A DNA stretch of 64,000 bases from Bryobacteraceae bacterium. GTDB lineage: Bacteria; Acidobacteriota; Terriglobia; Bryobacterales; Bryobacteraceae. Each line of letters opens with the position of its first letter. Positions within the stretch are counted from its first letter, which is position 1. This document shows, piece by piece, positions 14,110 through 20,187 of this stretch. Location: positions 1 to 64,000 of the forward strand of contig JAIEPW010000028.1 of the NCBI GenBank assembly GCA_019748195.1, given 5' to 3'. Position numbers and translations under genes: made by a program. The notes under the pieces were generated by a model. The model saw only the letters and a program-made list of their open reading frames with translations, did no database searches and had not been told where the DNA came from.

Positions 14110-15846
14110 GTGCCTGCGGCCACAGTCAGTCGCCTTACACTCATTCTGATCTCTCCTCTTCTCGTCCCCGCCCAGGTCCCCGATCGCAAAGCGCAAGCCC
14201 TCGCTCACGCCGCGGATGTTTTCACCAGCGTCCAGCGCCTGAGCGACCGCAACATCGCCCTGCGCACCGCCGCGGCCCTCGCCGCCGAGGTTTGCAAGTA
14301 CGACCAACCCGCGGGGGTGAACCTCTTTCAACAGGCCCGGCTGATTTTTCCGCCGGCCGCGAACGTACCGTGGTATATCGGCGACCGCGGTTTCCTGCGT
14401 TCGCTCGCGCTCGCGTGCGATCCCGCTTTGCAAGCCGATTTCGGGGAAACATCGCCTACCTCCCAGGCCCGTACCGACCTCGCGGCCGCCCTCGCGGCGG
14501 TGCGTGGAAGTGAGCTTCCGGCCGCGGATCTCCCGCAGGTGCTGCAGCGCGCCGCGAGTGGTTTGCCGCTTCACGATCGGCCCGGAATGCTGGCGCTGAT
14601 GGATGTTCTCCAGCAGGTGCGGATGCGGTCGCCGGAGCAGGCGAACGCCGCGTTCCTTCAAGCAGCAGGGTCGCTCACGAACGTCGCGCCCGAAAGCGCG
14701 ATCCAAGGTCTGTATACTCTGGCCACCTACCTCTTTCAGGCGCCGGGTCAGAACGACCCGCGATCGGTGATTGTCCGCCCGCTCGAGGGCGGCGGCTCGG
14801 CATATTACTTCTCCCAGGTGCGCGCCGGAATCCCGGCTGATCTGGTTGCCGCCTATCTGCGGATCGCCGCGCCCCGGCTGGCCCTCATGACCGCCACCGG
14901 AACCGTCCAAACGCGACGCCAGGCGCTGGCTCATCAGCTTCTTCCTTTGGCCGGGCGCTACCACCCCGCCTCGATCGCGGATCTGCAGACCGCCGCCGGT
15001 CTGAAGACCGGCGTCGAAATTACTCCCGAAGTCCAGGCGTTGCTCCGTCCCGTCGATCTGTCGAAGCCGGACTTTGAAAAAGACCTCGCGGCCAAGGCGG
15101 AAGACGAGCTCGACGCGGAAAGGAAGGATGAGCTGCATCTCAGCTTGCTCATCTTCCTGATCCAATCGAACCGCCTCAAGGACGCCCTCGATATTTTGCC
15201 GAAGATCGGCAACAACAGCCTGCGCCGGGCGATGGCGGGACTTGTGGCTTTCCGCCAGGCCGAGGAAGCGCTCGCCTCGAGCCGGCCGGACGACGCCCTC
15301 CAACGAGTCGCCGCGGCGCCGGATCCGGTGTACCCGGCGATCCTGTCTCTGGCGCTGGCGGCGCTGCCGGACGCCGAAACCGCGGGTCGCCTGGGCGTCT
15401 GCCTGGATTTCGTCAACAAAGCCGATCCCGCGCACCGCGCCCCTTTGCTGGCCGGTGTGGCCTCCCTGATGGCGTCCGCCAAACCGGAGTTTGGGTTGGA
15501 AATCCTCCGGGAGGCGGTTCTGCAGGCAAACCAGTCGCTCCGCCCGCCGCGGCGACCGGAGGACCGCGATCCGGTGCTGTCCGTCACGTCCGATCCGCGA
15601 GGGTTCCTGGCCACGGTCGAGTTCCGCGGGAGGAAGCAGGAATTCCGTCTGCAACCAAAGGGGCTGCCGGCACTTGCGTTCACCGACGTGATCCGGGCAT
15701 TCCGCCGCGCCGACCCGGTCGTCCTCGCCGAGATCGCCGGCAAGCTCGACGACGAGAACAGCCGGGCGCGCGCGATCACCGCGGTCGTGGCGGCCGAATT
15801 GGAGCAGGCCTTCCGTCCCGAATCTCAGCCCGCCCCAGGGCGATAA
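14110..15846 (+). CDS. Hypothetical exported alpha-helical protein (578 aa)
   Basis: Start is the GTG at 14110, preceded by a strong GGAGGA at spacing 7; the frame is open further upstream to 13972 but that part overlaps the divergent cassette promoter. Residues 1-22 (RLTLILISPLLVPAQ) form a signal peptide. The rest is alanine/leucine-rich and helical with repeated A-x-x-L patterns, including LPQVLQRAASGLPLHD near 145, SLLIFLIQSNRLKDALDILPKI near 340 and AILSLALAALPDAETAGRLG near 405, consistent with TPR-like or alpha-solenoid repeats. The C-terminal 100 residues contain a beta-strand patch (FLATVEFRGRKQEFRL). No known domain recognised. Confidence 0.75.
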   Translation: MPAATVSRLTLILISPLLVPAQVPDRKAQALAHAADVFTSVQRLSDRNIALRTAAALAAEVCKYDQPAGVNLFQQARLIFPPAANVPWYIGDRGFLRSLALACDPALQADFGETSPTSQARTDLAAALAAVRGSELPAADLPQVLQRAASGLPLHDRPGMLALMDVLQQVRMRSPEQANAAFLQAAGSLTNVAPESAIQGLYTLATYLFQAPGQNDPRSVIVRPLEGGGSAYYFSQVRAGIPADLVAAYLRIAAPRLALMTATGTVQTRRQALAHQLLPLAGRYHPASIADLQTAAGLKTGVEITPEVQALLRPVDLSKPDFEKDLAAKAEDELDAERKDELHLSLLIFLIQSNRLKDALDILPKIGNNSLRRAMAGLVAFRQAEEALASSRPDDALQRVAAAPDPVYPAILSLALAALPDAETAGRLGVCLDFVNKADPAHRAPLLAGVASLMASAKPEFGLEILREAVLQANQSLRPPRRPEDRDPVLSVTSDPRGFLATVEFRGRKQEFRLQPKGLPALAFTDVIRAFRRADPVVLAEIAGKLDDENSRARAITAVVAAELEQAFRPESQPAPGR

Positions 15847-15913
15847 GCCTCCCTCCCGCCTCCCCTTCTGCTAACTTTGAGACGGAATCCAACGTGCTGT
15901 GCCGAGGTATTAA

Positions 15914-16396
15914 ATGAGCGAACCCGCCCGGAAGGACGTCTTCAATCTCCCCGACGAGGAAGACGACTTCAAAATGCAGCATGCGCAGATCGCCCCCGCC
16001 GAGGTGGACGATCTTCCGTCGATCTGCTTCTTCGACGAAAGCATGAACGATCCCAAAAGAAAGGAATGGCTGACGCGGTGCATCTTCGAGGAGAAATGCT
16101 GGGTGCTGCTTCTCGACGACACCATCGTCGCCTACATGGTCTTCGACAAATCCTTTTTTGAACACCACTTGTTGCGGTGGCTGTTCGTCCATCCCGACCA
16201 CCGGCGCGACGGCATCGCGGCGGACCTGGTGGAACACCTGGAATTGCTCGCCATGGACGAGCGCGTCTTTGCCTCCGTCCCGGAGGCGAACACAACCATG
16301 CGCCGCGTGCTCGAACGTCAGGGCTGGAAGATCAGCGGCACGTTGGAACAGGTGGAAGAGACCGGCAGCGCGATCGTCTACTACAAGAACATGTGA
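15914..16396 (+). CDS. GNAT-family N-acetyltransferase
   Basis: 160 aa, acetyl-CoA-dependent acyltransferase fold. The pyrophosphate-binding loop region is LFVHPDHRRDGIAADLVEHLE (residues about 91-111), matching the R/Q-x-x-G-x-G/A pattern; the C-terminal part ERQGWKISGTLEQ is the usual beta6-beta7 region. The first 20 residues are acidic and outside the fold, so the ATG at 15974 is a possible alternative start; 15914 has an upstream GAGG. Its stop overlaps the start of the flavin reductase by one base (TGATG), indicating one transcript. Acceptor unknown. Confidence 0.78.
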   Translation: MSEPARKDVFNLPDEEDDFKMQHAQIAPAEVDDLPSICFFDESMNDPKRKEWLTRCIFEEKCWVLLLDDTIVAYMVFDKSFFEHHLLRWLFVHPDHRRDGIAADLVEHLELLAMDERVFASVPEANTTMRRVLERQGWKISGTLEQVEETGSAIVYYKNM

Positions 16397-17379
16397 TGGC
16401 GATGCAGCGCCGGATCAGCATCGTGGGCGGCGGACCGGCGGGAAGCGCCGCGGCGATCGCCGCCGCGCTGCGCGGCGCGGATGCGCGGCTGCACGAACAA
16501 TCAGCCTTCCCCCGGCACAAAGTATGCGGCGAGTTTCTCTCCGCGGAGATCGAACCGGCGTTGGACCGGCTCGGGATCCGCGCCGGCTTCCTCGACCACG
16601 CGCCTGCTCGCGTCCGCACCCTGCGCCTGTACTTCGGGAAGACGCGAAAGTCCGCGCCTCTCCCTGAAGCCGGGCATGGGCTCAGCCGTTACCTGCTGGA
16701 CGATCTTCTCCGCCGCCGGGCACTGGATCTCGGAGTCTCGTGGACCCGGGAACGAGCCGCACAGCCCACCGGCGCCGCCGTGATCGCCAGCGGACGCGCC
16801 GCGCCGGCCGCCCCGGGCGATCGGCTTTTCGGCTTCAAGGCTCACTTCACCGGACCCCCCGACGATGCCGTGGAGTTGTTCTTCTTCCCCGGCGGCTACG
16901 TGGGCATCAACTGTGTCGAGCAGGGACGCACCAACGTCTGCGGGCTGGCCCGCGAATCCGCCCTGCGGCGATTCGCGTTCCAATACGACGAACTGCTGAA
17001 TGCCACGGCCGCAATCCGCGAACGGTTGGCGCCTCTGCGGCGTGAAATGGATTGGCTGTCGACGGGGCCGCTGGTGTTCGGCAACCGCTTCGGTTCCCCG
17101 GCCCCGCCGGAAACGTTCCTTGCCGGCGATGCGCTTTCCTTCGTCGACCCCTTCACGGGGTCCGGTCTGCTGGTTGCGATCCGCACCGGGGAGCTCGCCG
17201 GTGCGTCGGCGGCGGAGGACAGGCCCGTGGCCGGCTACATGGCGGCCGCCGCCGGCATCATCGGCCGGCCCTTTCGCTTTTCCTCGTTGCTGCGCGATGC
17301 GGTCCGGTGGGGCGAACTGCTGGTGCCCTGGATTCCCTCATCGCTTTTGTACCGGATTACCCGTCCGCGGGCGGGTTGA
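16396..17379 (+). CDS. FAD-dependent oxidoreductase of the geranylgeranyl-reductase type
   Basis: About 327 aa. N-terminal Rossmann fingerprint ISIVGGGPAGSAAAIAAA binds FAD; next KVCGEFLSAEIEP near residue 40 is the PxxKxCG/xxLS block of the GGR family; the second FAD motif FLAGDALSFVDPFTGSGL is near residue 240. Members reduce isoprenoid chains or act as flavin monooxygenase-like enzymes. Length is short for the family (usually 380-420 aa), with a reduced substrate domain. Start ATG at 16396 (an alternative ATG is 16402). Coupled to the upstream GNAT gene. Confidence 0.8.
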   Translation: MAMQRRISIVGGGPAGSAAAIAAALRGADARLHEQSAFPRHKVCGEFLSAEIEPALDRLGIRAGFLDHAPARVRTLRLYFGKTRKSAPLPEAGHGLSRYLLDDLLRRRALDLGVSWTRERAAQPTGAAVIASGRAAPAAPGDRLFGFKAHFTGPPDDAVELFFFPGGYVGINCVEQGRTNVCGLARESALRRFAFQYDELLNATAAIRERLAPLRREMDWLSTGPLVFGNRFGSPAPPETFLAGDALSFVDPFTGSGLLVAIRTGELAGASAAEDRPVAGYMAAAAGIIGRPFRFSSLLRDAVRWGELLVPWIPSSLLYRITRPRAG

Positions 17380-17385
17380 TTCGAC

Positions 17386-17425
17386 AAAAAAGCCGGTGAG
17401 TACTCGGAGGATGATACTCACCGGC
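17386..17425 (-). terminator. Strong intrinsic terminator, minus strand
   Basis: Perfect 11-bp stem GCCGGTGAGTA (17392-17402) and TACTCACCGGC (17415-17425), 12-nt loop, directly followed on the minus strand by six U (A-run 17386-17391). It ends a transcript coming from the right, either the S1/P1 nuclease message or a separate small RNA. Confidence 0.8.
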
Positions 17426-17559
17426 CCGGCTCACCGCGCCACGCGCAGGAGCCAAACTCAGATTCCGGATCTCGGGGACTGGACCTTCACCCTATAGACG
17501 AGATGTAACGGGGGAGGTTACGATCCCAAGCGTACCACGTCACGGAAAGATTTCAAGAG
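17426..17559 (-). ncRNA. Candidate structured RNA ending at the 17386-17425 terminator
   Basis: Gene-free segment between the nuclease stop and the terminator. On the minus strand it holds a GTAAC-CTCCCCC-GTTAC hairpin (about 17504-17520), then a G/C-rich stretch including a GGCTC/GAGCC pair around 17428-17455, then the terminator. No recognised family (tested by eye against tRNA, tmRNA, SRP, RNase P and 6S motifs). Could be a 3' UTR of the nuclease mRNA or an independent small RNA. Confidence 0.4.
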
Positions 17560-18462
17560 CTATTTCAGCAGCGAATTCAACAGATCCGCCAGGCGATAAC
17601 CTGCCTCCGCCATGCGCCGCCGCGCAATTGCTTGAGCCTTAGTGGCATAGGCCGCATCTAGCACGACCGGTTGGGTTTCGCTTCCCCGAATCGGACCGAA
17701 GGTATAGACCTCTCGTTGCGCGATCCCCGCACTTTCGTTTAGCCAATCAGCCGGATTCCTACGCCTGACTGGGCGGAATTCCCTCGTCAGGGCCGCGGCC
17801 AGAACTTCGGAAGATCCGTTACCCGGTAAATCATCCCAATACCAATGGAGATTCCGCTTCTCGCCGGCGGTCTTCACGCCGTTACCGCCCGCGTCCCCAT
17901 CCGGCTGATCCTTCAGGAAGCGGCTGACGGCATGTAGCGGCTGATGAATGTCCCCGCTGATGTGCAGAATCCACGGGAGCGCGTACGCCGGATTGCGAGC
18001 GTCGTCTGGCGGACGGGTGACGTCCTGCATCAGCCGCGCCAGGGCGGTGATCGCGTTCTCGGCCCCGGCTGGCTGCAGCGGCGTTCCGTCCGGGGAAAAC
18101 GGCAAGTCCTTGTAGTGCCAAGGCTTTCGCATCTTCATATCGGGGAATCCCGGAAGCAGCGGTGTCGGTTGGGCGTCCTTCTTCTCATCGTCCCAGAAGC
18201 GCCGGTCGCCCTTGATGGTGTCCGGCCAGACGGCCGCGGCCTGCACGGCTTCCAACATCCGGTTGCCGGGATCGGTGGCGTTCCGCGTCAGGATGGTGAG
18301 GAAATCGGGATGCCGCGCCAGCAGTGAATCGACGCGAGCCCGGGCGCGCGGATTCAGCCGCTGGTAGGCAATCGCCGCGATCGCCCGGTGTCCGGTCGCA
18401 TTCCAGGCGTCCAGCGGCGCCACCATCGTCAGGACCAGAAGAACAGAAGCCGGGGATCTCAT
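17560..18462 (-). CDS. S1/P1-type zinc nuclease
   Basis: 300 aa exported nuclease that degrades single-stranded nucleic acid. Signal peptide SPASVLLVLTMVAPLDA, so that the mature chain starts with Trp (WNATGHRAIAAIAYQRL), as required because the N-terminal Trp and the following His are zinc ligands. Other zinc-ligand regions: KPWHYKDLPF, LHISGDIHQPLH and GGNGV...NLHWYWDD. Start ATG at 18462 gives this signal peptide; the frame stays open far upstream only because it runs antisense to RNase J. Divergent from RNase J over 54 bp. Probably supplies phosphate or nucleosides from extracellular nucleic acids. Confidence 0.9.
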   Translation of the reverse strand: MRSPASVLLVLTMVAPLDAWNATGHRAIAAIAYQRLNPRARARVDSLLARHPDFLTILTRNATDPGNRMLEAVQAAAVWPDTIKGDRRFWDDEKKDAQPTPLLPGFPDMKMRKPWHYKDLPFSPDGTPLQPAGAENAITALARLMQDVTRPPDDARNPAYALPWILHISGDIHQPLHAVSRFLKDQPDGDAGGNGVKTAGEKRNLHWYWDDLPGNGSSEVLAAALTREFRPVRRRNPADWLNESAGIAQREVYTFGPIRGSETQPVVLDAAYATKAQAIARRRMAEAGYRLADLLNSLLK

Positions 18463-18516
18463 GCGCGGAATTCTTGAGGATAGCAGGCGGCCGTACCTGA
18501 TACGCTGAAGGATTCC

Positions 18517-20187
18517 ATGTCTGATCTCAAACTGCAAGTGATCCCTCTCGGCGGCCTCGGCGAGTTCGGAATGAACTCGATGGCGCTTCGCTGCGGGGAC
18601 GACATCATCGTCATTGACGCCGGCATGATGTTCCCCGACGACGAACTGATGGGTGTGGACATCGTTATCCCGGATTTCAGCTACCTGAAAGAGCGCGCCC
18701 ACCAGGTCCGGGGCCTGGTTTTGACGCATGGCCATGAAGACCACATCGGCGGCGTGCCGTTTCTGCTCAATGAACTCGACATCCCCGTGTACGGCACCCC
18801 CTTCACCCTCGCCCTGGTGGAGCGCCGCCTGGACGAGCATGACCTGAAGGGCCAGGTTGATCTCAATCCGGTGAAGCCGGGCGAAAAAATCAAGCTCGGC
18901 TGTTTCGAGGTTGAGTTCATCCATGTCACCCACTCCATCGTGCAGTGCGTCGCCCTGGCGATCACCACGCCGCTGGGGGTCGTGATTCACACCGGCGACT
19001 TCAAGGTAGATCCCACGCCGACCGACAACGAACTGTTCGACCTCCATCGGCTGGCGGAATACGGCCAGCGCGGCGTGCTCCTGCTGTTGTCCGATTCGAC
19101 CAACGTGGATCGCCCCGGCTACACCGAGAGCGAGCGCGCCGTGGTCCCGCGCTTCGAGGATCTGTTCGCCCGGTCCCCGCGGAGGCTGATCGTTTCCTGC
19201 TTCAGTTCCTCCGTGCACCGGCTGCAGATGGTGCTCGACCTCGCCCACGAACACGGCCGCAAAGTCGCGTTCCTGGGCCGCAGCATGATGACCACCACGG
19301 AAATCGCCCACAATCTGGGCCTGCTGCGCGTTCCCGACGGCATCCTGCTGCGCCCGCAGGACATCATGACCGCGGCGCCTTCCAAGGTGTGCGTGGTCGT
19401 ATCCGGCACGCAGGGCGAGCCCATGTCGGCCCTGTCGCGCGTGGCCGTCGACAACCACAAGCATCTGTCCATTCAGCAGGGCGACACCGTCGTGCTCAGC
19501 GCGCGCATCATCCCCGGCAACGAAAAAGCCATTTACCGGATGATCAACCACATCGCGCGCCGCCGCGCCGACATCGTCTACGGCACCATGAACCCGCCCG
19601 TTCACGTCTCGGGCCACGGCTCCGCCGAGGAGTGCCGCCTGGTGCTGAACCTGGTCCGTCCCAAGTATTTCGTTCCCGTGCACGGCGAGTACCGGCAGAT
19701 GGCGAGCCATGCCAAGCTGGCGCAGCACCTTCGCCATTCCGGCCTCCAGGACACCTTCCTGCTCGAAACCGGACAGACTTTGGAGATCGACCGTGACGGC
19801 GCGCGCAAGGGCGACAAGGTCCCCGTCGGCCGCATTTGCATCGACTCCGGAACCGTCGACGAAGTGGTGCAGGATCCCATCATTCGGGACCGCCGGCATC
19901 TCTCCGAGGACGGCTTCGTGATTCCGATTCTGGCCATCAACAAAAGCACCGGCCGCCCCGAAGGCGTCCCCGAGATCGTGACCCGGGGCTTCATGTCGCT
20001 GGAGGAAGGCTCGGCGCTGCTCGAGGAGGCGCGCCGCACCGTCCGGAAGACGCTGGAAGAGTCCAACCCGGAGGAGCGCTCCGATTGGGGCGTCATCCAG
20101 GAAAAGATCCGCGTGGACCTGCGGCGGTTCCTCTCCAAGCAGACGCAGCGGCGTCCGTTGATCATGCCCGTCATCCTGGAGATTTGA
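18517..20187 (+). CDS. rnj: Ribonuclease J
   Basis: 556-aa metallo-beta-lactamase/beta-CASP RNase with endo- and 5'-exonuclease activity in mRNA decay and rRNA processing. Visible: LGGLGEFGMNSM, the zinc motif THGHEDHIGG (His71, His73, Asp75, His76), HTGDFKVD, the beta-CASP region SDSTNVDRPGYTESE, SGTQGEPMSALSR, NPPVHVSGHG and VPVHGEYRQM, and the C-terminal domain ending MPVILEI. Length is that of family members. Its start lies 54 bp from the divergent nuclease gene. Presence of RNase J suits a bacterium outside the RNase E-dominated proteobacteria. Confidence 0.94.
   Translation: MSDLKLQVIPLGGLGEFGMNSMALRCGDDIIVIDAGMMFPDDELMGVDIVIPDFSYLKERAHQVRGLVLTHGHEDHIGGVPFLLNELDIPVYGTPFTLALVERRLDEHDLKGQVDLNPVKPGEKIKLGCFEVEFIHVTHSIVQCVALAITTPLGVVIHTGDFKVDPTPTDNELFDLHRLAEYGQRGVLLLLSDSTNVDRPGYTESERAVVPRFEDLFARSPRRLIVSCFSSSVHRLQMVLDLAHEHGRKVAFLGRSMMTTTEIAHNLGLLRVPDGILLRPQDIMTAAPSKVCVVVSGTQGEPMSALSRVAVDNHKHLSIQQGDTVVLSARIIPGNEKAIYRMINHIARRRADIVYGTMNPPVHVSGHGSAEECRLVLNLVRPKYFVPVHGEYRQMASHAKLAQHLRHSGLQDTFLLETGQTLEIDRDGARKGDKVPVGRICIDSGTVDEVVQDPIIRDRRHLSEDGFVIPILAINKSTGRPEGVPEIVTRGFMSLEEGSALLEEARRTVRKTLEESNPEERSDWGVIQEKIRVDLRRFLSKQTQRRPLIMPVILEI

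Follow-up and report, generated by a model that had tools for sequence, protein, structure and literature searches.

An invariant CCUCC loop in a conserved terminator hairpin points to a small RNA gene in the Bryobacteraceae

What, if anything, is encoded in a gene-free gap that lies between two convergent genes and contains a strong terminator-like hairpin? The question is raised by positions 17380-17559 of the window, i.e., the whole 64,000-nt stretch of the Bryobacteraceae contig JAIEPW010000028.1 that was analysed, where the ends of the flanking ORFs delimit such a gap and where a first-pass annotation, made from the letters of this DNA, had considered an orphan structured RNA possible. 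The gap very probably holds a conserved structured RNA gene; with moderate confidence, the segment can be read as encoding a small RNA of about 137 nt that would act in trans, have its own promoter and repress translation through an anti-Shine-Dalgarno loop in its terminator. If true, this is a new RNA family with a sharp seed that spans most of the searched genera of the Bryobacteraceae, and the anti-Shine-Dalgarno loop strategy of the alphaproteobacteria is also found in a distant phylum. Acidobacteria are widespread in soils, yet few of their small RNAs are annotated (four in the table of a 2022 survey; PMC9029176).

The architecture of the locus is collected in Table 1. Inspection of the window sequence confirmed the minus-strand 11-bp perfect hairpin with its six-U tail that had been noticed at the outset, and the minimum free energy (MFE) fold contains a second GC-rich hairpin, as had also been proposed. 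The convergent gene gave no Pfam match at 1e-5, and we take it to be FAD-dependent oxidoreductase-like on account of its GGGPAGSA motif.

Table 1. Flanking genes and predicted RNA parts at the gap, in window coordinates
Feature	Position	Strand	Basis or remark
S1/P1 nuclease, upstream gene	17560..18462	-	Pfam PF02265, E 5.5e-39; stop codon 17560-17562
Convergent gene, presumably FAD-dependent oxidoreductase-like	16396..17379	+	Start uncertain; homologue faces the RNA in related loci
Predicted small RNA, about 137 nt	17387..17523	-	Between promoter candidate and U-tail; both ends inferred, 5' end uncertain by a few bases
Terminal hairpin	17392..17425	-	Perfect 11-bp stem, 17392-17402 / 17415-17425
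Terminal hairpin loop, 12 nt, UCAUCCUCCGAG	17403-17414	-	Window sequence
U6 tail of intrinsic terminator	17386..17391	-	Window sequence; also rich in U across the 90 aligned loci
Second GC-rich hairpin, just 5' of the terminator	17428..17453	-	MFE fold; unaligned across genera
Possible 5' hairpin GUAAC-CUCCCCC-GUUAC with a further CCUCC	17505..17521	-	Sequence; absent from the MFE structure, uncertain
Candidate extended -10 element TACGCT with upstream TG	17529..17534	-	Best-scoring site upstream of the window's hairpin
Candidate -35 element TTGAAA, 16-nt spacer	17551..17556	-	Just after the nuclease stop codon

For a 183-nt stretch the folding energy is -68.6 kcal/mol (z -2.0), a value equalled by 6 of 200 shuffles, and for the predicted transcript it is -56.1 (z -3.21), equalled by none of 200. 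A simple scan of positions 15000-20000 found no promoter-like site and four terminator-like ones, where shuffles gave 4.2, and the terminal hairpin was missing from its results because the scan allows loops of 3-8 nt only; the scan therefore lends the hairpin no support, which comes from conservation instead. The longest ORF in the predicted RNA of the window has 18 codons. That the transcript codes for a small protein is highly improbable: in some of the 23 loci inspected the ORFs reach 46 codons but look like chance ones, and in the 18 loci of one genus the longest ORFs range from 13 to 46 codons and begin at differing places.

Conservation was traced first by blastn of the segment against 60 relatives, which gave significant matches in five other genera; these span the hairpin plus at most some 15 preceding nt. 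Two further matches (L007 and L008) did not contain the hairpin and were set aside; in one of them, window positions 17421-17471 align with positions 1501-1555 of L007 (genome G019; 79% match, E 9.1e-5), and this partner of the middle of the segment seems to be protein-coding DNA, so that the similarity may be due to chance or to a gene remnant. A covariance model built from six sequences, namely the window and the matches in the five genera, finds the hairpin in 169 of the 237 genomes of the window's family, its own genome included, and in 56 of 76 genera, which supports the orphan structured RNA. Exactly one match is present in 148 of these 169 genomes and two or three in the other 21, where some of the additional matches may be the palindrome read on the other strand (model score 21-26 bits). 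The genomes of the family with no match (68 of 237 with this model, 56 with a second model built from 90 loci) may be true losses or misses, since only about 25 candidates were scored per genome. No second genome of the window's own genus came up.

The second model sets the limits of this distribution. In the order, 181 of 257 genomes match and all 181 belong to the window's family; in the class, 46 of 250 match, five of them outside the family, and in the phylum 6 of 199, four of them outside. The nine matches outside the family are weak (29.3-33.7 bits), and CCTCC is present in none of their hairpins, the nearest sequences being TTCCTCA (L224) and TTCCTTCGAGG (L220, L222); they were rejected as members since their loops hold no CCTCC, and for the same reason they resemble ordinary terminators that share a similar stem. 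With all in-order matches inside the family and those outside without CCTCC, the hairpin RNA appears to be a family-level feature of the Bryobacteraceae. In other acidobacterial families, terminator-like stems similar to GCCGGTG...CACCGGC enclose unrelated loops (L219-L227), which suggests a terminator style common in the phylum. A pattern scan of named genomes returned 60 stretches, titled Acidobacteria, Bryobacterales, Bryobacteraceae, Terriglobia, Acidobacteriales/Acidobacteriaceae, Ca. Sulfopaludibacter and similar. The hairpin was also seen in records titled Bordetella parapertussis (L134, CALQCC020000024.1) and Arcobacter (L107, DYJN01000040.1); both titles seem to be mislabelled, and L134 has the same hit position as contig C24 of G024, a genome of the window's family.

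The stem and loop were analysed in 90 loci (78 distinct sequences) kept from 125 matches, the other 35 being the reverse strand of the same palindrome. Paired cells make up 98.5% of the stem against 86.9% in shuffles, in an alignment that was fitted to the hairpin model and hence leans towards pairing. For 10 of the 11 stem pairs, one or more sequences carry a change on both sides, 119 cells in total; none of 500 shuffles reaches the observed values of pairing or of two-sided change, and sliding the stem partner by 1-3 columns lowers pairing to 30-45%. The stem thus covaries, and both terminator features, the covarying hairpin and a U-rich tail, are present in the related loci. Conversely, the loop does not vary: UCCUCC is invariant in 90 of 90 loci, in part because it was a model of the hairpin that retrieved them. 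GAG, which follows UCCUCC, is nearly so: G stands in column 25 in 88 loci, A in column 26 in all 90 and G in column 27 in 87. When 110 nt upstream are included in the fold, the bases of UCCUCC have, in order, mean unpaired probabilities of 0.40, 0.74, 0.94, 0.95, 0.94 and 0.99, so that the loop is predicted to be mostly open. CCUCC is the core of the anti-Shine-Dalgarno sequence, and this loop, absent from the first-pass annotation, is the main clue to function. A repeat or mobile element was considered and discarded, as the window's own genome has one copy and the exact pattern has no match in the viral collection. A DNA-level element, for instance a recombination or chromosome-organising site, would suit a palindrome that mostly gives one match per genome, but it is a very remote alternative given stem changes that keep pairing, a U-rich tract on one side and the absence of the pattern from viral contigs.

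Whether the hairpin is an RNA of its own or the end of a message is a question for its neighbours, which were defined by ORF homology in single-linkage groups, with one protein per named group checked in Pfam. Counts cover 86 of the 90 loci, 75 of which have an upstream and 74 a downstream gene with homologues in other loci. The nearest upstream gene is on the same strand as the hairpin in 71 of 75 loci, its end and the hairpin being a median of 137 nt apart, and its groups include Nramp (23), MFS (14), an unnamed group (8), S1/P1 nucleases as in the window (7) and others. Downstream, 58 of 74 loci have a convergent gene; most often, in 28 of 74, the first gene with family support there is FAD oxidoreductase-like, as at the window. 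Shared neighbours support the orthology of the loci. Since the hairpin stands behind several upstream gene families that are exchanged between lineages, it is not tied to the nuclease, and the plain nuclease 3' end, which would have spoken against a separate RNA, is argued against.

The constant same-strand position behind a gene would also fit a 3'-UTR origin. According to this alternative, the hairpin does no more than terminate the upstream mRNA strongly, although a small RNA with no promoter of its own might be processed from the 3' UTR. The proximity of the upstream gene and promoter scores that are weak overall speak for this alternative. We consider it quite unlikely, because stem and loop persist while the upstream gene differs between lineages, because an ordinary terminator needs no invariant loop (the nine stems outside the family have other loops), and because one genus keeps elements resembling a -35 and a -10. 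Specifically, in this genus, the only one to be deeply sampled, CTGTACA is kept in 18 of 18 loci, with TANNNT 17-18 nt further on, and GTCCAGTT and CGTCTCTTTC are conserved after TANNNT while the sequence further upstream drifts, a pattern consistent with a sigma70-like promoter. The RNA body upstream of the hairpin is conserved there as well: in the RNAalifold structure of 16 of the 18 loci, a 5' hairpin is followed by two stems in the middle and by the terminal hairpin; compensated change is seen in 11 of 37 pairs, and several middle pairs are broken in some sequences. The 5' part of the window aligns poorly with this genus outside the terminal hairpin. Conservation beyond the terminator, whose lack would have counted against an orphan RNA, therefore holds for the RNA body and the promoter-like elements of one genus, whereas across genera clear sequence conservation is limited to the terminal hairpin. 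In another genus (five loci: L032, L042, L043, L045, L049), a block of about 35 nt around TTTATGATGGGGTACTATACAAT is nearly invariant; it falls within the last part of the Nramp reading frame and is more conserved in nucleotides than the coding sequence before it, which suggests that it is probably an overlapping promoter of the small RNA. As to the window, its promoter candidate TTGAAA-16-TACGCT has a score of 10.6, compared with 6.1 on the other strand and a mean of 6.6 in shuffles. Across all 90 loci, the promoter scores exceed shuffles by only a small margin (z averages 0.75 and is above 2 in 13 loci), and they are better than those of the other strand in 58.

The mechanism that we favour would start from a promoter just behind the upstream gene, from which the small RNA would be transcribed on the minus strand to end at the intrinsic terminator. 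The terminator hairpin would double as the active part, its single-stranded loop exposing UCCUCC, and the loop would pair with the GGAGG ribosome-binding sites of target mRNAs and block their translation. Transcription, target pairing, repression and any role of Hfq are inferred. An Hfq gene is present in the window's genome (94.8 bits); it permits the use of Hfq and decides nothing.

Repression of translation in trans is the most likely function by analogy with NfeR1 of Sinorhizobium meliloti, a 123-nt trans small RNA of the alpha-r14 family that is conserved in related bacteria, has three hairpins with differing stems, each with an CCUCCUCCC anti-Shine-Dalgarno motif in unpaired regions, and silences ntrB at its translation initiation region independently of Hfq (PMC10746234). 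Measured against that description, the Bryobacteraceae RNA is alike in that stems vary around a conserved loop. It differs in the loop itself, which is UCUUCCUCCGAG (UCAUCCUCCGAG in the window) and not CCUCCUCCC, CCUCC alone being common to both, and in the number of motif hairpins: one is clear in the window, in the terminator loop, and a second CCUCC hairpin is found in some lineages only. Moreover, NfeR1 is alphaproteobacterial and has a known target, whereas the Bryobacteraceae RNA belongs to a different phylum. The small RNAs CcsR1-4 of Rhodobacter sphaeroides carry CCUCC-type loops, in copies arranged in tandem. They are made by RNase E processing of the ccaF1 3' UTR (PMC8625941); they likewise stand behind a protein gene, whereas the Bryobacteraceae RNA has varied upstream genes and likely its own promoter.

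Searches for known families point to novelty. Rfam 15 at the gathering cut-off had no match in the window, and with E up to 10 the region 17300-17650 gave one microRNA-family match alone (15 bits, E 5.6), which is of no relevance here; among 16 related loci, Rfam reported solely a tRNA elsewhere in L091. Neither Acido-1 nor Acido-Lenti-1 (RF01686, RF01687), structured RNAs of Acidobacteria (PMC2864571), matched 17300-17650 at E up to 10. The Solibacter-1 motif is listed for the acidobacterium Solibacter usitatus in a table of the same source that gives no Rfam accession for it (PMC2864571). No description of the hairpin RNA was found in titles and abstract beginnings of the open-licence papers that literature searches returned. 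As far as tested by Rfam and these papers, and Solibacter-1 apart, it is a new RNA family of a known kind.

A target test was negative: in the 237 genomes, exact 12-nt complements of the loop precede an ATG in 32 cases, compared with 42 for a control with scrambled flanks and the GGAGG core kept. The reversed patterns gave 9 (loop complement) and 11 (scrambled-flank control), and since both patterns exceed their reversed controls, the excess is that of any Shine-Dalgarno-like sequence; the test, with its exact 12-nt complements, is crude, and such RNAs may use shorter seeds. Of the 32 matches and of the 42 control matches, 30 each were inspected as loci; among 16 proteins of 40 aa or more encoded downstream of the first set, one pair, from one genus, is related. 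The window's genome has four 11-nt complements, one being the RNA's own hairpin and the other three no convincing ribosome-binding sites. One site is shared by L168 and L183, from different genera (G001 and G229), which are identical over at least 120 bases there; it was rejected as a target because its ATG runs straight into a stop and is hence no start codon, and the sharing may reflect a recent transfer or a shared or misbinned contig. A search for 16S rRNA, the gene from which its own anti-Shine-Dalgarno sequence would be read, had no match in the window's assembly; as 5 of 14 control genomes went undetected too, the gene may still be in the assembly.

The lack of specific enrichment bears on two other readings. 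The RNA may be a core global regulator of the Bryobacteraceae whose loop seed would compete broadly for ribosome-binding sites rather than act on few targets; we hold this to be unlikely, and it fits the family-wide and mostly single-copy presence, the invariant loop and the absence of a specific conserved target. As part of this reading, the number of seed hairpins would vary by lineage. Alternatively, the conserved small RNA may use its invariant loop to bind a protein or an RNA site other than Shine-Dalgarno sequences. This is rather doubtful: the unenriched targets and the conserved GAG in columns 25-27, which exceeds what a Shine-Dalgarno mimic needs, would agree with it, but CCUCCGA recurs in a second, different hairpin of other lineages, as expected of a pairing seed, even if the duplicated CCUCCGA could also be a duplicated protein site.

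This recurrence is seen in the 105 nt before the terminal hairpin, where CCTCC is present in 27 of 90 loci (shuffles 11, other strand 6) and CCTCCGA in 12 of 90 (0.6 and 1, respectively), in counts that take related loci apart and ignore kinship. In nine compared loci, the upstream CCTCC forms the loop of a separate 6-bp GCCAGC/GCUGGC hairpin, whose stem is invariant among the nine and hence gains no support from covariation. In the window, one further CCUCC lies in a C-rich stretch near the predicted 5' end of the RNA.
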